DNA from: Methylobacterium oryzae
Lineage (GTDB): Bacteria > Pseudomonadota > Alphaproteobacteria > Rhizobiales > Beijerinckiaceae
Assembly (NCBI RefSeq): GCF_021398735.1
Contig: NZ_CP090349.1
Span: 3,863,001 to 3,927,000 of the forward strand
Direction of reading: 5' to 3'
Length of the DNA: 64,000 nt
The number at the start of each line of letters is the position of its first letter. Position 1 is the first letter of the stretch. Shown here in pieces: positions 4,606 through 64,000 of the stretch. The notes beneath the pieces are model-generated. The model was not told where the DNA came from. It was given only the letters and a program-made list of their open reading frames with translations, and searched no databases. The translations under genes were made by a program, and so were the position numbers.

Positions 4606-4917
4606 ATGCGGAACCCCCTCGCGACCCTGAGCGCCGACGACCGCGCCCTGCTCCGGAAGCGCCTGCGCACGCCCGTCCTCACCTTCCTGGCGCTGCTCGC
4701 CCTGCTCGCCGTCAACGTGACGCTGGGCGCCACCCTCCCCTTCGCGCAGGTCTGGATCGTGGAGCTCGCGGTCGTCGCCGTGATGGTGGCGCTGATCCTC
4801 CTCGTCTCCATGGAGGTGATCCACGAGCCGCCCCTGATCCGGCTATTCTCGGGGCTCGGCTTCTTCTGGGTCGCCATCATGGTCGGCATGACGCTGACCG
4901 ACTATCTCGCCCGCTGA
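4606..4917 (+). CDS. coxP: Cytochrome c oxidase subunit IV (CoxP type)
   Basis: This 103-residue protein has three predicted membrane helices (about residues 20-40, 46-68 and 78-98), fitting the prokaryotic subunit IV (COX4_pro) size and topology. It starts two bases after the coxO stop, so it completes the coxMNOP operon. Sequence identity of this family is low; the call rests on size, topology and operon position. No gene follows on this strand for 78 bases, so this is probably the operon end. Confidence 0.8.
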   Translation: MRNPLATLSADDRALLRKRLRTPVLTFLALLALLAVNVTLGATLPFAQVWIVELAVVAVMVALILLVSMEVIHEPPLIRLFSGLGFFWVAIMVGMTLTDYLAR

Positions 4918-4995
4918 CCCGCGCGAAAGCCGTTGTCGGGACGGCCGAACGCTCCTAAACGGGGCCGCTTCCCCGCATGGCCCGGCTGAAAGACG

Positions 4996-5781
4996 ATGTG
5001 CGAACTGCTCGGCATGAGCGCCAACGTGCCGACCGACATCCGCTTCTCCTTCGCGGGCCTCGCCCGGCGCGGCGGCGAGACCGGGCCGCACGCCGACGGC
5101 TGGGGTATCAGCTTCTACGACGGCCGCACCTGCCGCAGCTTCCACGAGCCGGAGCCCAGCGCCCGCTCGCAGCTCGCCCGGCTCCTGCGCGACATGCCGA
5201 TCAAGAGCCGGATCGTGGTCGCCCATGTCCGCAAGGCCAATCGCGGCCGGGTCAGCCTGGAGAACACCCACCCGTTCTCCCGGGAATTGTGGGGCCGCCG
5301 CTGGACCTTCGCGCATAACGGTCAGCTCAAGGGCGTGAAGCGGCTGCCGCTGGGCGGCTTCATGCCGATCGGCTCCACCGACAGCGAGCACGCCTTCTGC
5401 TGGATGCTCGGCCGGCTCCAGGCCCGGTTCCGCGCCCTGCCCCGCCCCGAGACCCTCGACCGGGCGGTGGCCGACCTCGCGGGCGAGCTGCACGCGCTCG
5501 GCGTGTTCAACATGCTGCTCACCGACAGCCGCACCCTCTACGCCCATTGCGGCAAGCGCCTCTGCTACCTCACCCGCTGCGCCCCCTTCGGGAAGGCCAC
5601 CCTGATCGACGAGGACTGGCAGGTGGATTTCGCCCAGGAGACCACCGAGCACGACGTGGTGACGGTCATCGCCACGCAGGCGCTGACCCGGGACGAGTGC
5701 TGGACCGATCTCGCCCGCGGCGACGTCCTGACCCTGCGCGACGGGGCGATCCGGCTGTTGAGACCGGCCAACTTAGCTTAA
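4996..5781 (+). CDS. Class II glutamine amidotransferase (YafJ-like)
   Basis: This 261-residue cytoplasmic enzyme begins Met-Cys-Glu-Leu-Leu-Gly, placing Cys2 as the N-terminal nucleophile after Met removal, the mark of Ntn-type glutamine amidotransferases. The family features RRGGETGPHADGWG, the VVAHVRKAN strand and the HNG loop (FAHNGQLKG) are all present, as is TDSEHAFCWML. Members hydrolyse gamma-glutamyl amide bonds; the YafJ subgroup lacks a known acceptor domain, so the physiological substrate is unknown (the yeast relative DUG3 acts on glutathione). The gene stands alone between coxP and the stress sigma factor. Confidence 0.85.
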   Translation: MCELLGMSANVPTDIRFSFAGLARRGGETGPHADGWGISFYDGRTCRSFHEPEPSARSQLARLLRDMPIKSRIVVAHVRKANRGRVSLENTHPFSRELWGRRWTFAHNGQLKGVKRLPLGGFMPIGSTDSEHAFCWMLGRLQARFRALPRPETLDRAVADLAGELHALGVFNMLLTDSRTLYAHCGKRLCYLTRCAPFGKATLIDEDWQVDFAQETTEHDVVTVIATQALTRDECWTDLARGDVLTLRDGAIRLLRPANLA

Positions 5782-54738: not shown

Positions 54739-55593
54739 TCAGGCGGCCCGGCGCTTGGCGAGGCGGTCGAAGGCGAGGAGTTCCTCGAGCAGGGCCGGCA
54801 TGTCCTTCAGCGCCACCATGTTGGGGCCGTCGGAGGGCGCCCGGTCGGGGTCGGGATGGGTCTCGATGAACACCCCCGCCACGCCCACCGCCACGGCGGC
54901 GCGGGCGAGGACGGCGACGAATTCCCGCTGTCCGCCGGAACTCGCCCCCTGCCCGCCGGGCTGCTGCACCGAGTGGGTGGCGTCGAACACCACCGGCGCG
55001 CCCTGCGTGACCTGCGCCATGATCGGCAGGCTGCGCATGTCCGACACCAGCGTGTTGTAGCCGAACGAGGCGCCGCGCTCGGTGACGATGACGTTGGGGT
55101 TGCCCGCCTCCGTCACCTTGGCGGCGACGTGCTTCATGTCCCAGGGCGCCAGGAACTGGCCCTTCTTGATGTTGACCGCCCGGCCGGTCGCGGCGGCGGC
55201 CAGCAGCAGGTCGGTCTGGCGGCACAGGAAGGCGGGGATCTGGAGCACGTCCACCGCCTCGGCGGCGGGGGCGCACTGCTCGGCGGCGTGCACGTCGGTC
55301 AGCACCGGCAGCCCGAGGGTCTCGCGGATCTCGGCGAAGACCGGGAGCGCCCCGTCGAGGCCGATGCCCCGGGCGGCGCTGCCCGAGGTGCGGTTGGCCT
55401 TGTCGAAGGAGGTCTTGAACACGAGGCCGACGCCCAGACCCGCGGCCATCTCCTTGAGGGCGGCGGCGATCTCCAGGGCGTGCTGGCGCCCCTCGAGCTG
55501 GCACGGGCCGGCGATCAGCGTCAGCGGCAGATGGTTGGCGAAGCGCGCGTCGCCGACTTGGACGACGGGGCCGGGTGTCTCGATCTTCGACAT
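54739..55593 (-). CDS. kdsA: 3-deoxy-8-phosphooctulonate synthase (KDO8P synthase)
   Basis: This 284-residue enzyme condenses arabinose-5-phosphate with phosphoenolpyruvate to give KDO-8-phosphate for lipopolysaccharide. Signatures: [57 protein letters not shown] and [11 protein letters not shown]. The KdsA Cys in GPCQ identifies the metal-dependent type. Located 2 kb upstream of eno on the same strand; alphaproteobacteria often keep kdsA near eno. Confidence 0.95.
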
Positions 55594-56273: not shown

Positions 56274-57284
56274 ATGCTCCGAACCCTCCTCGCTTCCGTC
56301 CTGCTGGCCCTGGTGCCGGCCGGGCACGCTTCCGCAGAGCCGCCCCAGCAGCCGACCTACGGGCCCGAACTCGAGGGCTTCGCCTACCCGTTCCCGGTGG
56401 AGCGGTTCCCGTTCACGTCGCAGCGCCAGCCGCTGCAGATGGCCTATCTCGACGTCCGCCCGGCGACGCCGAACGGCCGGACCGCCGTGCTCCTGCACGG
56501 CAAGAATTTCTGCGCCGCCACCTGGGAGAGCCAGATCCGGGCACTCAGCGCCGCGGGGTACCGGGTCATCGCGCCGGACCAGATCGGCTTCTGCAAGTCG
56601 AGCAAGCCGGCGGCCTACCAGTTCACCTTCCGGCAGCTCGCCGAGAACACCCGCGCGCTCCTGGAAAAGCTCGGGATCGAGCGGCCGATCCTGGTCGGCC
56701 ACTCGACGGGCGGCATGCTGGCGGCTCACTACGCCCTGCTCTACCCCAAGGCGGTGGAGCAACTCGTGCTGGTCAACCCGATCGGCCTGGAGGACTGGGC
56801 CGCCAAGGGCGTGCCGCCGACCTCGGTGGAGCAGTGGTACCAGCGCGAGCTGAAGGTGACGGCGGCCTCGATCCGGGCCTACGAGACGGCGACCTACTAT
56901 GCCGGCGCCTGGGAGCCCCGCTACGAGCCCTGGGTCACGATGCTCGCGGGCCTCAACAACGGCCCCGGCAAGGAGGCGGTCGCCTGGGACTCGGCCCTGC
57001 TCTACGACATGATCCTCACCCAGCCGGTGGTCTACCGGTTCCCGCAGATCGCGGTGCCGACGCTGCTCCTGATCGGTCAGAAGGACAACACGGCGATCGG
57101 CAAGGACCTCGCGCCGCCGGAGGTGCGGGCGAGCCTCGGCAACTATCCCGAGCTCGGCAAGGCGGCCGCCAGGGCCATCCCGGGCGCGCGGCTCGTGGAG
57201 TTCCCGGATCTCGGTCACGCGCCGCAGATGTCGGACCCGGAGGGGTTCAATGCGGCGCTGATCGCCGGGATCGCGGCGCGCTAG
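56274..57284 (+). CDS. Exported alpha/beta hydrolase
   Basis: This 336-residue protein has a signal peptide (MLRTLLASVLLALVPAGHASA). Alpha/beta hydrolase core: oxyanion strand TAVLLHGKNFCAATWE, nucleophile Ser144 in GHSTGG, Asp in LLLIGQKDNTAIG (about 267) and His in PDLGHAPQ (about 315). It is close to periplasmic epoxide hydrolase or esterase-like proteins of unclear substrate. Gene ends in a strong shared hairpin terminator. Confidence 0.87.
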   Translation: MLRTLLASVLLALVPAGHASAEPPQQPTYGPELEGFAYPFPVERFPFTSQRQPLQMAYLDVRPATPNGRTAVLLHGKNFCAATWESQIRALSAAGYRVIAPDQIGFCKSSKPAAYQFTFRQLAENTRALLEKLGIERPILVGHSTGGMLAAHYALLYPKAVEQLVLVNPIGLEDWAAKGVPPTSVEQWYQRELKVTAASIRAYETATYYAGAWEPRYEPWVTMLAGLNNGPGKEAVAWDSALLYDMILTQPVVYRFPQIAVPTLLLIGQKDNTAIGKDLAPPEVRASLGNYPELGKAAARAIPGARLVEFPDLGHAPQMSDPEGFNAALIAGIAAR

Positions 57285-57359: not shown

Positions 57360-58535
57360 CTAGAAGTAGGACTTCAGCACGCCCCGGCGGCGGACGTCGA
57401 GGGTCGCGCAGTGGAACGAGCCGCCGAACGGGCCGTAGCTGAGGAACGGCGCCGGGATCGGGTCGAAGCCCCAGTCCTTCAGGGCCTTGATCAGCGTCGG
57501 CTGGCTCTGGTCGACGACGATCTTCTTCTCGGTGATCGCCAGGACGTTGATCGAGGTCCAGGGCGAGCACATCGAGATCTTGCTCATGAAGCCCTCGACC
57601 GGGTCGGGGCGCGGGGCGACCAGCACGTCCCACTTCTTGAGCACGGCCGGGAGCTTCTCGACGTCGACGTAGTCCGGGTTCACCAGAACCTTGCCGGGGG
57701 CGAGCGGCATGAACGACGAGTCGATGTGCATCGGCTGCGGGCAGCGGCTCTCGATCTCGTGGATGCGGAAGCCCGGGCCGAGGTGGCGGCGCAGCCACTC
57801 GATGCCCATCAGGTTGGTCACGTTCGAACGGGTCACGAACAGGTCGCGGCCGCAGCGGACGAAGTCGGCGGCGTCGAAGACCGGCTCGAACTCGTTGACC
57901 GTGAACTGCATGGGCTCGCCGGCCTTCAGGTTCGGCACCCGGTAATCGTAGTTGTAGAGGTCGTCGGTCAGCTGCGGGCGCGGCGCGGAGGTCCAGCGGG
58001 CGCCGGCGCGGAAGTACTCCTTGAACAGCGACCGGTAAGCGTCGCCCTCGAAGTAGCGCGAGCGCCAGCACATCGGGCTCTCGATGATCTCGTCGCCGAT
58101 GACGAGGTACGGATCGCGCGGGCAGGCGACGCAGAAGCCGCGGGAGGACCAGCGCGGCGCCTTGAACTTCTTCGAGAAGTCCACCGCGTCGGGACGGCGG
58201 ACCTTCACGCCCTCGCCGGCCAGGATGGTGATGAAGTTGTCGAGCTCGGCCTGGGCGAGCTTCTTCATGAACTTCGGATATTTCCAGCCGCTCGCCAGCC
58301 GGTAGAACGGCTGCGCGGCGCGCGGCAGGTTGAAGATCACCGTCAGGTGGTGAGTCGGGATCGTGGCGCCGTCGAGCGAGCCGACGATGACCTCCTCCAG
58401 CGGATCCCACTCGTTCCAGGCCATCACCGGCGACTGGGGAGCCGGCACGCCCGGTCCGGTTCCGTCCGGAAAGCCGCCCGCATGCGTGTCGTCGGTCACG
58501 GCCTCCAGGGCCGTGATCGGTGATTCGCGCTCCAT
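57360..58535 (-). CDS. Amidinotransferase (arginine:glycine amidinotransferase-like), candidate hopanoid-tailoring enzyme
   Basis: This 391-residue cytoplasmic enzyme is of the AGAT/StrB fold. Catalytic residues are in place: Asp231 (FVRCGRDLFVTRSNVTN), His270 (PQPMHIDSSFMPLAPGKV) and Cys376 (GGSFHCATLDVRRRG). The core has AGAT-like RDPYLVIGDEIIESPMCWRS and EYFRAGARWTSAPRP. AGAT moves the amidino group of arginine to glycine; StrB moves it to an aminocyclitol in streptomycin synthesis. It is divergent from hpnL-M-I-J-K, whose product is an aminocyclitol hopanoid, so amidination of that amine is a reasonable role. It could instead make guanidinoacetate. Confidence 0.88.
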   Translation of the reverse strand: MERESPITALEAVTDDTHAGGFPDGTGPGVPAPQSPVMAWNEWDPLEEVIVGSLDGATIPTHHLTVIFNLPRAAQPFYRLASGWKYPKFMKKLAQAELDNFITILAGEGVKVRRPDAVDFSKKFKAPRWSSRGFCVACPRDPYLVIGDEIIESPMCWRSRYFEGDAYRSLFKEYFRAGARWTSAPRPQLTDDLYNYDYRVPNLKAGEPMQFTVNEFEPVFDAADFVRCGRDLFVTRSNVTNLMGIEWLRRHLGPGFRIHEIESRCPQPMHIDSSFMPLAPGKVLVNPDYVDVEKLPAVLKKWDVLVAPRPDPVEGFMSKISMCSPWTSINVLAITEKKIVVDQSQPTLIKALKDWGFDPIPAPFLSYGPFGGSFHCATLDVRRRGVLKSYF

Positions 58536-58745
58536 GACGTGTGCCCCTTCTGCGACGTGCCGCGGCCTTCTGCGCGGGCTTCTCCGCCCCGCCGCCGCTT
58601 TGGCCCTCGGTGTGTCAAACGGGTGATAGACACCGCTAATCCGTGCTGCAACGTGACAGAAACGTTCCCGGGCCGATGGACCTATTTCTGCCGCGACCGT
58701 GACCGATTTCCCGCATCAAGCCTTACGCGAGCTTGAAAGACGACA

Positions 58746-59858
58746 ATGAAGCGCCTGACGACCTTGGCCTCGATCGCCGGTCTGTGCACGGTCGTCGGCC
58801 TGTTCATGTCCTCCGGCCTGGAGGATGTGTCGGCCGCCGTCGTGAGCGCCGGCTGGGGCGCCGCCCTGGTGGTGCTCGCGCGCTTCGTGGCCGTCGCCTG
58901 GGCGGGGCTCGGCTGGTACGTCGTGTTCCCCGCCGGCGCGACCAAGCTCGCCGACTGCATCTCGCTCCGCTTCGTCCGCGAGGGCATCAACACGCTGCTG
59001 CCCGTCGCCACCGTCGGCGGTGACTTCGTCGGCGCCCGCCTCCTGTCGAAGCGCAACGTTCCGGGCGCGCTCGCGGGCGCCAGCATGTTCGTCGACCTGA
59101 TGACCCAGGCGCTGACGCAGCTCCTGTTCACGGTGGCCGGCCTCGCCCTGCTGGTCCTGATCGCCGGCGACGGACCGATCGCCCACACGGTCGAGGGCGG
59201 GCTGGCCCTGGCGGTCCCGGCGCTCGGCGCCTTCTACCTGATCCAGCGCAAGGCCGGTCACCGCCTGATCCAGGCGCTGCTCAGCCGCTTCGCCTCCGGG
59301 CGCGAGTGGCGGGCCTTCGGCGCCATCGACCAGCTCTACGACAGCCTGCGCCGGCTCTACGGCAACCACGGTCGCTTCGCGTTGGCCCTGGTGGTCCACC
59401 TCGCCGGCTGGGTGATCGGCACGCTCGAGGTCTATGTCTGCCTGCGGTTCATGGGCTACCCGATCGACTTCGCGCAGGCGCTCATGATCGAGAGCCTCGC
59501 CCAGGCGGTGCGCGGCGCGGCCTTCGCGGTGCCCGGCGCCCTGGGCGCGCAGGAGGGCGGACTGATCGCCCTGTGCGGCCTGTTCAATATCCCGGCCGAG
59601 GCGGCGCTCGCCCTGTCGCTGGTCAAGCGCTTCGCCGATCTCGGCGTCGGGCTCCCGAGCCTCCTGCTCTGGCACCGGATCGAGTCCAGGCTCCGGTCCG
59701 AGACGCCGGAGGAAGAGGAGCGCGAGCCTGCGCCGGAGGCCGGGCGCAAGGCCAAGAGGGTCGCGCAGCCCGCCACCCTCGGCCCGTTCTACAGCTACGC
59801 TCCGCCGCGCATGGGGGCGCGGCTCGGCGACGGCGAGGAGTTGAAGAAGTGCGCCTGA
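58746..59858 (+). CDS. hpnL: Hopanoid-associated membrane protein HpnL
   Basis: This 370-residue protein is of the lysylphosphatidylglycerol synthase-TM / flippase-like family with about eight helices. Typical family segments are SLRFVREGINTLLPVATVGGDFVGARLL and RGAAFAVPGALGAQEGGLIALC. The 50-residue C-terminal tail is charged. HpnL is thought to help move hopanoids; the name rests on the order hpnL-hpnM-hpnI-hpnJ-hpnK seen here. It overlaps hpnM by ten bases. Confidence 0.87.
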   Translation: MKRLTTLASIAGLCTVVGLFMSSGLEDVSAAVVSAGWGAALVVLARFVAVAWAGLGWYVVFPAGATKLADCISLRFVREGINTLLPVATVGGDFVGARLLSKRNVPGALAGASMFVDLMTQALTQLLFTVAGLALLVLIAGDGPIAHTVEGGLALAVPALGAFYLIQRKAGHRLIQALLSRFASGREWRAFGAIDQLYDSLRRLYGNHGRFALALVVHLAGWVIGTLEVYVCLRFMGYPIDFAQALMIESLAQAVRGAAFAVPGALGAQEGGLIALCGLFNIPAEAALALSLVKRFADLGVGLPSLLLWHRIESRLRSETPEEEEREPAPEAGRKAKRVAQPATLGPFYSYAPPRMGARLGDGEELKKCA

Positions 59859-60472
59859 CCCGCCGGCTCGCGGCCGCCCTCATCGCCGCTCCCTTGGCCC
59901 TGACCCTGCTCGTCCCGGCCCCGTCACGGGCCGCGGACGATCCGGCCGTTCAGACCGTGCGCGACCTCTACGCCGCCTTCTCGGCCGCGCTGAAGGACGG
60001 GCCCGGCCCGCTGCCGGCCCGGGTCGAGGCCGTCGGCCCCGCGCTCGACAAGGCGTTCGACTTTCCCGCCATGACCCGCATCGCGGTGGGCTCGAAATGG
60101 TCGAGCTTCACCCCGGAGCAGCAGGCGGCGGTCATCGACGCCTTCAAGCGCAGCCTGACCGTCACCTACGCGAACCGGCTGGCACGCGCCGCCGGCGGCA
60201 AGTTCGACGTGACCCCGAAGGTCGAGGAGCGGGGCGCCCAGCGCGTGGTGCCGACCCGCGTCACCGCCGCGGACGGCGACGATTCCGCCGTGGACTTCGT
60301 CGTCAACGCCGACAACCGCATCCAGGACGTCCTGCTCAACGGCGACGTCAGCGAGATCGCTGCGCAGCGGAACGCCCTGTCGGCGCCGCTGAAGTCCGGG
60401 GGCGCCGACGGCGTCGTGAAGTTCCTCCGGGCGCGGGCCGACGGCATGCTCGCGGCCAAGCCGACGCCCTGA
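59849..60472 (+). CDS. hpnM: Hopanoid-associated periplasmic protein HpnM (MlaC family)
   Basis: This 207-residue exported protein from a GTG start (10-base overlap with hpnL) has a signal peptide (LAAALIAAPLALTLLVPAPS) cleaved near SRA-AD. The body is a Ttg2D/MlaC fold (FDFPAMTRIAVGSKWSSFTPEQ, YANRLARAAGGKFDVTPK, DFVVNADNRIQDVLLNG). MlaC relatives shuttle lipids between membranes, so HpnM is expected to carry hopanoids. Second gene in the cluster. Confidence 0.9.
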   Translation: MRLTRRLAAALIAAPLALTLLVPAPSRAADDPAVQTVRDLYAAFSAALKDGPGPLPARVEAVGPALDKAFDFPAMTRIAVGSKWSSFTPEQQAAVIDAFKRSLTVTYANRLARAAGGKFDVTPKVEERGAQRVVPTRVTAADGDDSAVDFVVNADNRIQDVLLNGDVSEIAAQRNALSAPLKSGGADGVVKFLRARADGMLAAKPTP

Positions 60473-60558
60473 GCGGCGCCGGCGCCTGCGCCGACCTGAA
60501 CCGGCCGTTCGCGGCCATCGCCGCCTCGGCGGCCGGACGATCGCACGGATCCGACCGG

Positions 60559-61767
60559 ATGGATGTCTCCTCCCTGGCGCTGCTCGGCCTCTCGTGGCTC
60601 TCGCTGCTCTGCCTGATCCTGGCGGCGGCGGGCTGCGTCTACGGGCTGGCCGCCGCCATGTGCGCGGGCCGCTACGCGGGCCGCCGCCCGCCGGTGCTGC
60701 CCGCCGGCGCGACGCGGCCCTCCGTGACCGTGCTGAAGCCGCTCTGCGGCCTCGAGCCCAATCTCTACGCGAATCTCGAGACCGTGCTGCGCCAGGACTA
60801 CGCCGGGCCGGTCCAGGTCCTGTTCGGCGTCCAGAAGCCCACCGATCCCGCGATCGGCGTGGTCGAGCGCCTGCAGCAGGCCTATCCCGAGGCCCGCATC
60901 GACCTCGTGATCGACGGCCGGCAGCACGGATCGAACCGCAAGGTCTCGAACCTGATCAACATGGCCGAGGCCATCGCCCACGACGTGGTGGTGCTGGCCG
61001 ACAGCGACATGGTGGTGGGGCCCGACTACCTCGAGCGCCTCGTCGCGGAGCTGTCCCAGGACGGCGTCACCGGCGTCACCTGCCTGTACCACGGGGTCCC
61101 GGCCTTCCGGGGCCTGTACGACCAGCTCTCGACGCTCGCGATCGACACCCACTTCCTGCCCAACGTCGTGATGGGCCTGAGCCTCGGTCTGGCGAAGCCC
61201 TGCTTCGGCTCTACCGTGGCCTTCACCCGGGCGAGCCTGGAGGCGGTCGGCGGCTTCCGCACCTTCCGCAACGATCTGGCGGACGATTACGCCATCGGCG
61301 CCGCCCTGCGCGGCCTCGGCGGCCGGGTGGTGATCCCGAGCTTCACGATCGGCCACACCAGCGTCGACACCGATCTCTCCGGCCTGTGGCGGCACGAGCT
61401 GCGCTGGAACCGGACGATCCGCACCGTCGACCCGGCGGGCTACGCCGGCTCGATCGTCACCCACGCCTTCCCGCTCGCGCTGCTGGGCGCGCTCCTGCCC
61501 GGCGCCGGCACCGGCGCCCTCTGGGTCGCCGCCGCGGCGCTGGCGAGCCGCGTGCTGCTCTGCCGGCAGCTGGAGCGGGCCTTCGGCCTCGCCCCGCACC
61601 CCTACGGACTGTTGCCGATCCGCGACATCCTCTCCTTCCTGAACTTCTCCTGGGCCTTCGTGTCGGGGGCGGTGACATGGAAAGGTCACGATTATCACGT
61701 GGTTGCGGATGGCACCCTGATCCCGGACGCCGAACTCGGCCGCGATGCCGGCGCGCCGCTCCGCTGA
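60559..61767 (+). CDS. hpnI: Hopanoid glycosyltransferase HpnI
   Basis: This 402-residue membrane GT2 enzyme has an N-terminal helix (about 8-32), a GT-A domain with SVTVLKPLCGLEPNLY, the metal-binding Asp148-x-Asp150 in LADSDMVVG and HELRWNRTIR as the R/QxxRW equivalent, then C-terminal helices. It resembles ceramide glucosyltransferase. HpnI adds N-acetylglucosamine to bacteriohopanetetrol in the known pathway. It precedes hpnJ by 57 bases. Confidence 0.93.
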   Translation: MDVSSLALLGLSWLSLLCLILAAAGCVYGLAAAMCAGRYAGRRPPVLPAGATRPSVTVLKPLCGLEPNLYANLETVLRQDYAGPVQVLFGVQKPTDPAIGVVERLQQAYPEARIDLVIDGRQHGSNRKVSNLINMAEAIAHDVVVLADSDMVVGPDYLERLVAELSQDGVTGVTCLYHGVPAFRGLYDQLSTLAIDTHFLPNVVMGLSLGLAKPCFGSTVAFTRASLEAVGGFRTFRNDLADDYAIGAALRGLGGRVVIPSFTIGHTSVDTDLSGLWRHELRWNRTIRTVDPAGYAGSIVTHAFPLALLGALLPGAGTGALWVAAAALASRVLLCRQLERAFGLAPHPYGLLPIRDILSFLNFSWAFVSGAVTWKGHDYHVVADGTLIPDAELGRDAGAPLR

Positions 61768-61824
61768 ACCCGGCTCCCTCGTCCTCCGCCCCTCCCCCGG
61801 CATTGCCCTGAGGCCTTGAACCCC

Positions 61825-63258
61825 ATGCGCACGCTCTTCCTCCAGGCCCCCACCTTCGACGGTTTCGACGGCGGTGCCGGCTCCCGTTACCAGGCCAAGC
61901 GCGAGATCAAGTCGTTCTGGTACCCGACCTGGCTGGCCCAGCCGGCCGCCCTGGTGCCGAACTCGAAGCTGATCGACGCGCCACCGCACAACATCAAGCT
62001 CGCCGAGATCGTGGCCCAGGCCAACGACTTCGACCTCGTCGTGCTCCACACCTCGGTGCCGTCGTTCAAGTCCGACGTGAAGACGATCGAGGCGCTCAAG
62101 GCCGCCAACCCGAAGCTCATCGCCGGCCTGATCGGCGCCAAGGTCGCGGTCGACGCCGCCGGCGCGATGGCCCAGGCCCCGGTGGTCGATTTCTGCGCCC
62201 GCAACGAGTTCGACTTCACCGTCAAGGAGGTCGCCGACGGCGTCCCGATGTCGGAGATCAAGGGGCTGTCCTATCGCGACGCCAACGGTGTCGTGGTCCA
62301 CAACGAGGACCGCGAGATCATGACCGACATGGATCAGCTGCCCTTCGTCACCAGCGTCTACAAGCGCGACCTGGAGATGGAGAAGTACTTCATCGGGTAC
62401 CTGAAGCACCCCTACATCTCGTTCTACTCGGGCCGGGGCTGCAAGAGCCGCTGCACCTTCTGCCTCTGGCCGCAGACGGTCGGCGGCCACACCTACCGCA
62501 CCCGCTCGGTCGCCCACGTGATCGAGGAGATCAAGTACTGCCTGAAGGAGTTCCCGCAGACCAAGGAGTTCTTCTTCGACGACGACACCTTCACCGACAA
62601 CCTGCCGCGCGCGGAGGAGATCGCCCGCGAACTCGGCAAGCTCGGCGTCACGTGGTCGTGCAACGCCAAGGCGAACGTGCCGCGCGAGACCCTGAAGGTG
62701 CTCAAAGAGAACGGCCTGCGCCTGCTGCTGGTCGGCTACGAGTCCGGCAACCAGCAGATCCTGCACAACATCAAGAAGGGCATGCGGGTCGAGGTCGCCG
62801 AGAAGTTCACCAAGGATTGCCACGACCTGGGCATCGCCATCCACGGCACCTTCATCCTCGGCCTGCCGGGCGAGACGAAGGAGACGATCCAGGAGACGAT
62901 CAACTTCGCCAAGCGGATCAACCCGCACACGATCCAGGTCTCGCTGGCGGCGCCCTACCCGGGCACCTTCCTGTACAAGCAGGCGGTGGAGAACGGCTGG
63001 CTCGACATCGAGAACGCTGAGCTCGTCGACGAGAACGGCGTGCAGGTCGCGCCGCTGCACTACCCGCACCTCTCGCACACCGAGATCTTCACCTCGGTCG
63101 AGGAGTTCTACAAGAAGTTCTACTTCCGGGCGCCGAAGATCGCCTCGATCGTCAGCGAGATGGTGCGCTCGCCCGACATGATGAAGCGCCGCCTGCGCGA
63201 GGGCGTCGAGTTCTACCGCTTCCTCAAGGAGCGTCAGGGCACCGCCAAGGCGGCCTGA
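61825..63258 (+). CDS. hpnJ: Hopanoid radical-SAM enzyme HpnJ
   Basis: This 477-residue enzyme has a cobalamin-binding-like N-terminal domain (about 1-140) and a radical-SAM core with Cys206-x3-Cys210-x2-Cys213 (GRGCKSRCTFCLWPQT), ligands of the 4Fe-4S cluster. The known HpnJ role is ring contraction of hopanoid-bound glucosamine into an aminocyclopentitol, giving the cyclitol ether. Start ATG 61825; TTG 61816 is an alternative. A cluster of hairpins separates it from hpnK. Confidence 0.93.
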   Translation: MRTLFLQAPTFDGFDGGAGSRYQAKREIKSFWYPTWLAQPAALVPNSKLIDAPPHNIKLAEIVAQANDFDLVVLHTSVPSFKSDVKTIEALKAANPKLIAGLIGAKVAVDAAGAMAQAPVVDFCARNEFDFTVKEVADGVPMSEIKGLSYRDANGVVVHNEDREIMTDMDQLPFVTSVYKRDLEMEKYFIGYLKHPYISFYSGRGCKSRCTFCLWPQTVGGHTYRTRSVAHVIEEIKYCLKEFPQTKEFFFDDDTFTDNLPRAEEIARELGKLGVTWSCNAKANVPRETLKVLKENGLRLLLVGYESGNQQILHNIKKGMRVEVAEKFTKDCHDLGIAIHGTFILGLPGETKETIQETINFAKRINPHTIQVSLAAPYPGTFLYKQAVENGWLDIENAELVDENGVQVAPLHYPHLSHTEIFTSVEEFYKKFYFRAPKIASIVSEMVRSPDMMKRRLREGVEFYRFLKERQGTAKAA

Positions 63259-63269
63259 AGTCAGAGGTC

Positions 63270-63358
63270 CGGGGACTGCGGTCCCGGCGGGGAGCGGGGC
63301 AGAGCCCCGCCCCTCTTCCAGGGCTCCGCCCTGGACCCGCGAGAGGGCGAGCCCTCTC
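63270..63358. repeat. Tandem hairpin element between hpnJ and hpnK
   Basis: Consecutive stem-loops: GGGAC/GTCCC near 63272-63286, GCGGGGC/GCCCCGC (63294-63300, 63304-63310), CCAGGGC/GCCCTGG (63318-63324, 63328-63334) and GAGAGGGC/GCCCTCTC (63341-63348, 63351-63358). Only 21 bases remain before hpnK. Similar clustered palindromes are frequent in related genomes. Confidence 0.65.
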
Positions 63359-63379
63359 GACACCCGTTACGAGGTTACC

Positions 63380-64000
63380 GTGAAGCGTCTGGTCGTCACC
63401 GCGGATGATTTCGGGCTGAGCCCCGAGGTCAACGAGGCCGTCGAGCAGGCCCATCGCGACGGGATCCTCACGGCGGCGAGCCTGATGGTCTCGGCGCCGG
63501 CCGCCGCCGACGCCGCGGCGCGGGCCCGGCGGATGCCGTCCCTGCGGGTCGGGCTGCACCTCGTCCTCGTGGAGGCGTGGCCGACCCTGCCGGCGGAACA
63601 GCTTCCCGACCTGACGGACGAGGCCGGCCTGATGCGGGCCGACATGGCCCGCCTCGGCCTCGACTTCGCCCGCAGGCCCGCGGCCCGGCGCCAGCTCGCC
63701 GCCGAGATCCGGGCTCAGTTCGAGGCCTACCGGGCCACCGGCCTGCCGCTGGACCACGTCAACGCCCACAAGCACTTCCACGTCCACCCGCTGATCGCCG
63801 GGGCAGTGCTGCGCGTCGGCCGCGACTTCGGGATGCGCGCCCTGCGGGTGCCGCGGGAGCCGCGCGAGATCCTGCGCCGCGCCGAGCTCGGCGCGCGGCC
63901 GCGAGCCGCCCTCGACATCGCGCCCTGGGCGGCGCTGCTCGCCGTCCGCGCCCGGCAGGCCGGGCTGCTGATCCCCGACCGCACCCTCGGCCTCGCGTGG
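63380..64000 (+). CDS. hpnK: Hopanoid N-acetylglucosamine deacetylase HpnK (3' end outside window)
   Basis: From GTG 63380 the frame stays open to the last base: 207 residues visible. It matches the YdjC/ChbG carbohydrate deacetylase family: TADDFGLSPEVNEAVEQAH at residues 7-25 with the Asp-Asp metal site, and the metal histidines in DHVNAHKHFHVHP (about 130-142). HpnK removes the acetyl group from hopanoid-GlcNAc, exposing the amine used by HpnJ's product. Only the C-terminal quarter appears to be missing. Confidence 0.92.
   Translation, partial: MKRLVVTADDFGLSPEVNEAVEQAHRDGILTAASLMVSAPAAADAAARARRMPSLRVGLHLVLVEAWPTLPAEQLPDLTDEAGLMRADMARLGLDFARRPAARRQLAAEIRAQFEAYRATGLPLDHVNAHKHFHVHPLIAGAVLRVGRDFGMRALRVPREPREILRRAELGARPRAALDIAPWAALLAVRARQAGLLIPDRTLGLAW

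Follow-up and report, generated by a model that had tools for sequence, protein, structure and literature searches.

We consider it quite probable that a gene in a 64,000-nt stretch of Methylobacterium oryzae DNA (contig NZ_CP090349.1, positions 3,863,001 to 3,927,000; hereafter the window) encodes a hopanoid amidinotransferase, an enzyme that would guanidinylate an amine of a hopanoid, a sterol-like lipid of bacteria, and so give it a positive charge. The choice of one particular amine, that of the bacteriohopanetetrol (BHT) cyclitol ether, is made less firmly than the assignment to hopanoid amines in general. We tie the enzyme to hopanoids because of its conserved neighbourhood of hpn genes and its fusion to the membrane protein HpnL in some relatives; the novelty would lie in the kind of substrate on which an already known fold acts, together with an unexpected fusion to a flippase-like protein. 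In the window, the gene lies next to a set of hpn genes:

57360..58535, minus strand: AGAT-type amidinotransferase, 391 aa (open reading frame and homology to solved relatives; catalytic D221, H270 and C376)
58536..58745: divergent intergenic region between the start codons of the amidinotransferase gene and hpnL, 210 bp
58746..59858, plus strand: hpnL, LPG_synthase_TM (flippase-like) membrane protein, 370 aa (TIGR03476, 335 bits, cut-off 195.65; PF03706, 91.9 bits)
59858..60472, plus strand: hpnM, MlaC-like, start codon provisional (PF05494, 98.9 bits, cut-off 26; TIGR03481, 102 bits, cut-off 160.1)
60547..61767, plus strand: hpnI, glycosyltransferase leading to BHT N-acetylglucosamine, start approximate (TIGR03472, 438 bits, cut-off 310)
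61816..63258, plus strand: hpnJ, radical SAM enzyme acting in the synthesis of BHT cyclitol ether (TIGR03471, 815 bits, cut-off 577.6)
63380..64000, plus strand: hpnK, deacetylase leading to BHT glucosamine, running past the end of the window (NCBIfam, 280 bits for the piece in the window, cut-off 232.6)

This is the arrangement recognised in an earlier reading of the same DNA (the sequence-only reading), which had described a 391-residue protein of the AGAT/StrB fold, divergent from hpnL and 210 bp away from it, beside an HpnL-HpnM-HpnI-HpnJ-HpnK set. The members of that set exceed their NCBIfam cut-offs save for HpnM, which falls below its own yet is a clear MlaC protein by Pfam. The complete hpnK gene, extending past the window (locus L040), encodes 280 aa scoring 358 bits, and hpnN and hpnH come after it.

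Comparison with sequences of solved structure places the enzyme closest by score to the saxitoxin amidinotransferase SxtG (PDB 6u1r; 440 bits), followed by human AGAT (345 bits) and HsvA (315 bits), while StrB, at 251 bits, comes last among the seven solved sequences that were listed. Homology is near full-length, the AGAT match spanning residues 31-390 and the StrB match residues 36-390, and 168 of 349 aligned columns (48%) are identical between the window protein and human AGAT. At the position of AGAT Arg322, a residue with a role in substrate binding, the 32 alignment rows of the clade that contains the window protein (the window clade) have Tyr in 28 cases, Phe in three and His in one, while the position of Asn300 is Gln in 29 of the 32 and Thr in the other three. 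Considering that Arg322 is replaced in every row and Asn300 by Gln in 29, the enzyme is not AGAT proper, from which it also differs in sitting with hopanoid genes. We considered these active-site letters as a possible signature of hopanoid enzymes and rejected them, since Tyr at the Arg322 position is common to the window clade and its sister clade (see below), and the change is therefore no hopanoid mark. The catalytic Asp-His-Cys set is intact and invariant in all 32 rows. The catalytic residues of AGAT, D254, H303 and C407 (PMC3684758), align with D221, H270 and C376 of the window protein; the sequence-only reading thus had His270 and Cys376 right, while the Asp231 that it named aligns with AGAT D264, another conserved aspartate, and the catalytic one is D221.

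SxtG, the top-scoring relative, was compared by score and lies outside our tree, and as the window gene has the hpn cluster for its context, we propose no link to the toxin. StrB, the inosamine-phosphate amidinotransferase of streptomycin synthesis, shares the fold and acts in an aminocyclitol pathway (PMC4887976), but besides its low score, the StrB-like row of the alignment differs from the window clade in keeping Arg at AGAT position 322 and in having Ala and Thr at positions 300 and 302. Family profiles are of little help for this protein: a Pfam PF02274 search of the host genome (6.65 Mb) did not detect the gene, Pfam assigned no family to the protein, and NCBIfam gave one weak dimethylargininase match far below its cut-off. 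As these models failed to detect it, protein queries were used in the searches described here. Enzymes of the AGAT family use arginine as the source of an amidino group that they place on an amine (PMC4887976), and by this chemistry the window protein would likewise use L-arginine as the amidino donor.

A scan of contigs with the family alignment found 195 related loci, and the best 80 were kept for neighbourhood counts. At least one of hpnLMIJK lay in the examined flank of 76 of these (the loci without any being L054, L055, L099 and L105), hpnJ in 74, and the full hpnLMIJK set in 71. The 80 loci are not independent, because 72 of them belong to Methylobacterium or Methylorubrum. Gene order varies: in M. 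oxalidis (L066), which like M. soli (L106) has the amidinotransferase beside hpn genes, hpnK, hpnN and hpnH are on the opposite side of the enzyme gene; in a Beijerinckiaceae metagenome-assembled genome (MAG; L120) the enzyme gene is placed between hpnN and hpnK; and in a Hyphomicrobiaceae MAG (L056) it adjoins hpnL. Over the alignment columns used in the tree, the window protein and its Methylobacterium fujisawaense counterpart are 98% identical. Comparison with eight other Methylobacterium/Methylorubrum loci gave ratios of nonsynonymous to synonymous substitution (dN/dS, NG86) of 0.006-0.22, indicating purifying selection. With the same layout found throughout the genus and selection acting to conserve the gene, its place beside the hpn genes is not a matter of chance.

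Co-occurrence with HpnJ extends this association from gene neighbourhoods to genomes. Our family sample comprised 199 genomes of the GTDB family, with enzyme matches in 33 and HpnJ matches in 48; the HpnJ count was set to 45 after G020, G060 and G091, whose matches reached only 26-27% identity, were dropped. HpnJ was present in all 17 genomes with a clade enzyme (at least 72% identity, window genome included) against 45 of 199 overall, with the enzyme and HpnJ on the same contig in 15 and, in the other two, on broken contigs with HpnL next to the enzyme. The hypergeometric p value is 6.6e-13 (2.9e-12 without the window genome), on the assumption of independent genomes, while the 17 come from three genera. 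Among genomes reached through loci, HpnJ was present in eight of eight, including four where no hpn gene was found in the examined flank of the enzyme, namely an alphaproteobacterial MAG, two Syntrophobacteraceae MAGs and Paraburkholderia adhaesiva. The enzyme is 1.3 Mb from HpnJ on the same contig in P. adhaesiva and on a separate contig from it in the three MAGs; a copy of HpnJ lies together with HpnI in each of these four genomes, and three of them have HpnK there too. Distant HpnJ proteins still exceed the 577.6 cut-off, as in Syntrophobacteraceae Ch74 (L153/G585; 45% identical, 742 bits) and L149/G782 (50%, 694 bits). P. adhaesiva (L151, L154) has two hpnJ copies, one clustered with hpnI, hpnK and hpnL and the other with no hpn neighbours detected.

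The proposal that gene and hpnJ should co-occur, put forward in the sequence-only reading, was thus borne out within the window clade, in the family sample, among the genomes reached by locus and in the tree; the survey of known guanidino hopanoid makers covered Methylobacterium only. In a sample of 198 genomes of the phylum of the Syntrophobacteraceae, near full-length HpnJ (at least 46% identity) was found in 18 genomes (27 at E 1e-60, and one further 49% fragment), and both genomes with the enzyme had HpnJ. We do not count that figure (two of two among 18/198, p 0.008) as a test: G587, the genome around which the sample was drawn, had been picked for having the gene, which leaves G782 as the only fresh case, with a chance of about 17/197.

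The tree, of 52 rows, groups the window protein with 31 others (support 88/81). HpnJ was present for 22 of these 32 rows and absent for none, the remaining ten being outside the HpnJ test, and HpnJ was found in every window-clade genome searched for it. The clade takes in cyanobacterial proteins from Chlorogloeopsis, Xenococcaceae and Prochloraceae (among the rows without an HpnJ test), and a Rhizonema protein outside the tree is 72% identical to that of Chlorogloeopsis. Guanidine hopanoids have been reported from cyanobacteria (PMC5642901), though we met no such report for these particular organisms. A sister clade of 13 rows (support 91/93), separate from the window clade, holds proteins from HpnJ-less genomes of the same family together with two Bradyrhizobium plasmid genes; the StrB-like row is drawn next to it on a very long branch, a join that is unsure and should be disregarded.

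Sister-clade enzymes, 58-62% identical to the window protein, were found in 15 genomes of the family sample, which represent few genera. HpnJ was absent from 14 of them (G172 being known from a fragment), the exception being G102, which has HpnJ in pieces but carries a sister-clade enzyme. The sequence-only reading had held that a gene found mostly in genomes without hpnIJK would speak against its proposal; such a distribution is seen in the sister clade, with HpnJ in one of 15, and not in the window clade. In the three annotated sister-clade loci (L033, L035, L036) the neighbours are unrelated genes. At L033 and L037 (genus g17) the sister-clade gene is divergent from the genes for ribosomal proteins L35 and L20, and the genomes concerned possess hpnH, a gene of hopanoid side-chain synthesis, while lacking HpnJ. 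Indeed, hpnH scored above its cut-off in 14 of the 15 sister-clade genomes (the exception again being G102, which is 84% complete), compared with 100 among the 199 genomes of the family sample; it did so in none of ten genomes with more distant enzymes (25 genomes searched in all).

Three genomes from the genus of P. adhaesiva show a direct link between the enzyme and HpnL, since reading-frame analysis placed both proteins in one open frame:

L166:9242-11374: HpnL and amidinotransferase
L167:8234-10396: HpnL and amidinotransferase
L168:5148-7406: HpnL and amidinotransferase

The enzyme lies inside open frames of 752-777 codons, and the fused chains of 710, 720 and 752 aa contain no stops and consist of HpnL followed by a whole amidinotransferase, the HpnL parts scoring 264, 272 and 272 bits with TIGR03476 (cut-off 195.65). 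In Burkholderia sp. H160, HpnL is encoded by a separate gene directly upstream of the enzyme gene, and the start ATG of that enzyme gene is ATC in two of the three fused frames. The linker remains open despite synonymous divergence (dS) of 0.24-0.82 among the three. At the same time, the linkers contain start-like codons (ATG in L166 and L168, GTG or TTG in L166 and L167), so that an internal start is possible and the single-chain reading rests on the DNA frame. No HpnL was found beside the enzyme in P. adhaesiva itself.

HpnL belongs to PF03706, the family of the membrane region of lysylphosphatidylglycerol synthase, and a 2025 survey describes its function as not established (PMC12583986). 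MprF, a two-domain protein that makes and translocates aminoacyl lipids (PMC8131360), joins a PF03706 membrane domain to a catalytic domain, as the open frames of L166, L167 and L168 would; here the catalytic domain is an amidinotransferase and the lipid presumably a hopanoid, and unlike MprF the two parts form one frame only in the three genomes of the P. adhaesiva genus and are separate genes in the window. By this analogy, HpnL probably handles or translocates the cationic hopanoid product. We advance only tentatively the fuller proposal that HpnL and the amidinotransferase could be an MprF-like synthase-flippase pair, in which guanidinylation would take place at the inner leaflet, HpnL would move the product across the membrane and the two would have become fused in Paraburkholderia, and, by extension, that the HpnJ-less sister clade, found alongside hpnH in 14 of 15 genomes, could act on a different amino hopanoid, 35-aminobacteriohopanetriol for instance, of whose guanidinylated form we know no report.

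Taken with the published steps of the pathway, whose order is given as HpnI, HpnK, HpnJ in PMC12583986, these observations suggest a route to guanidine hopanoids. As published, HpnI puts N-acetylglucosamine on BHT, HpnK takes off the acetyl group and HpnJ forms the amino cyclitol ether. Cys376 of the amidinotransferase would then pick up the amidino group of L-arginine, which the enzyme would transfer onto the free amino group of the cyclitol ether, and possibly also of BHT glucosamine, giving a guanidine-substituted hopanoid and ornithine, and HpnL would probably handle or translocate the cationic product. AGAT-type chemistry fits such a route because a guanidine product needs transfer of an amidino group onto the amine exposed by HpnK. 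The claim of the sequence-only reading that the enzyme amidinates the cyclitol-ether amine is well supported as regards a hopanoid amine, through hpnJ co-occurrence, neighbourhood and HpnL fusion, and is less firm as regards the cyclitol ether itself.

Products of this kind are on record, as the sequence-only reading had noted for pink-pigmented methylotrophs: PMC5358736 gives M. extorquens as a source of guanidine-substituted BHT cyclitol ether, and PMC5642901 cites the compound for methylotrophs, Zymomonas mobilis, Geobacter sulfurreducens and cyanobacteria. The latter source also gives guanidine BHT glucosamine for Dolichospermum BIR53 and, as unpublished data, for Nostoc, and traces guanidine hopanoids to papers of 1985 and 1994, with their proposal as biomarkers, including for Geobacter. 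The same reading had known of no enzyme assigned to the step, in agreement with our literature search, in which no paper paired an amidinotransferase with a hopanoid, subscription journals being mostly outside its scope, so that an assignment elsewhere is possible.

Several observations weigh against our assignment and should be set beside it. HpnJ often occurs without the enzyme: 16 of the 18 near-full-length-HpnJ genomes of the Syntrophobacteraceae phylum lack an amidinotransferase, and in a Pseudomonadota sample of 398 genomes, with HpnJ in 18 and the clade enzyme in six (all in the window's genus), 12 of the 18 HpnJ genomes are without it. Since most HpnJ genomes elsewhere lack the enzyme, it is accessory to the HpnJ pathway rather than core to it. 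In the genus of P. adhaesiva, HpnJ is present in 76 of 82 genomes, so that co-occurrence with the four clade genes there (one being the sample centre; p 0.73) is uninformative. Of the reported producers Geobacter sulfurreducens, Zymomonas mobilis, Dolichospermum and Aphanizomenon, none appears by name among the matches of three protein searches (the best 120 of 4743-5194 each, most without names), and a Dolichospermum plasmid record holds only a 38% identical relative. Moreover, M. soli and M. oxalidis were grown in the survey of PMC12583986, which describes 63 lipids of five types with no guanidine class, the word stem "guanid" being absent from its main text; the strain names of M. oxalidis differ between that work and locus L066. 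Apart from hpnA, B, L and M, the same survey reports no gene close to hpn clusters as an evident candidate; either the gene was overlooked or it was judged differently. Finally, a KDO-8-phosphate synthase gene (54739-55593) lies in the window 1.8 kb from the amidinotransferase gene, beyond an alpha/beta hydrolase gene.

The last point bears on the suggestion that the enzyme guanidinylates some other amino lipid or amino sugar, for example a part of lipopolysaccharide, or a polyamine. The KDO gene is nearby in some near relatives too, HsvA, which acts on polyamines, is among the solved homologues of the same fold, and the lack of an established function for HpnL (PMC12583986) leaves room for such a substrate. 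The KDO gene, however, was found in a subset of the 80 loci, those closest to the window, against hpn genes in 76, and the clade tracks HpnJ within the family sample, and we therefore regard these substrates as very unlikely. Much the same evidence bears on a metabolic amidinotransferase acting on a small amine, in guanidinoacetate or homoarginine synthesis, that merely lies near hpn genes. Such an enzyme would suit the match to human AGAT, 48% identical in 349 columns, and the surroundings of the sister clade (58-62% identity), which at the loci examined has unrelated neighbours such as the genes for ribosomal proteins L35 and L20. This explanation does not, however, account for hpn neighbours in 76 of 80 loci, for HpnJ in genomes where none was found near the enzyme or for the HpnL fusion; the Tyr, Phe or His at the Arg322 position in all 32 clade rows also argues against it, though Tyr is seen in the sister clade as well. 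We judge it improbable.

Closer to our assignment, and overlapping with it, is amidination of BHT glucosamine before or instead of the HpnJ step, with the guanidine cyclitol ether being made from guanidinylated glucosamine. Neighbourhood and co-occurrence are blind to which amine is used, because hpnI, hpnJ and hpnK mostly travel together (PMC12583986 and our 80 loci), and guanidine BHT glucosamine is itself reported, from Dolichospermum BIR53 and the unpublished Nostoc data (PMC5642901). On the other hand, for M. extorquens it is the guanidine cyclitol ether that is on record (PMC5358736), and HpnJ is present in every window-clade genome searched, which makes the glucosamine route, in our view, rather doubtful.

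If a hopanoid amine is indeed the substrate, the gene would let sources of guanidine hopanoids be predicted from genomes and would open a way to asking what a permanently cationic hopanoid does, and HpnL would gain a testable role. To our knowledge, the enzyme would also be the first amidinotransferase of this fold to act on a membrane lipid.

Other genes at these loci deserve mention. The alpha/beta hydrolase gene (56274-57284) adjoins the amidinotransferase gene in the window, and a 72% identical relative lies about 4 kb from hpnJ in P. adhaesiva (L151, from about 14277). Just outside the window, between hpnK and hpnN (L040:12255-13130), is a gene for a 291-aa protein that has no NCBIfam match at E 1e-8 and gave tblastn matches in only part of the 80 loci. 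A 47% identical amidinotransferase is found in an apparent biosynthetic cluster on a Streptomyces plasmid (L053). In three Burkholderia-group loci (L110:7487-8740, L166:11532-12755, L167:6856-8106), the gene just upstream of HpnL and the amidinotransferase encodes a radical SAM protein of 407-417 aa, possibly one more enzyme of hopanoid tailoring, whose nearest models, MoaA and BlsE, are all far below cut-off.

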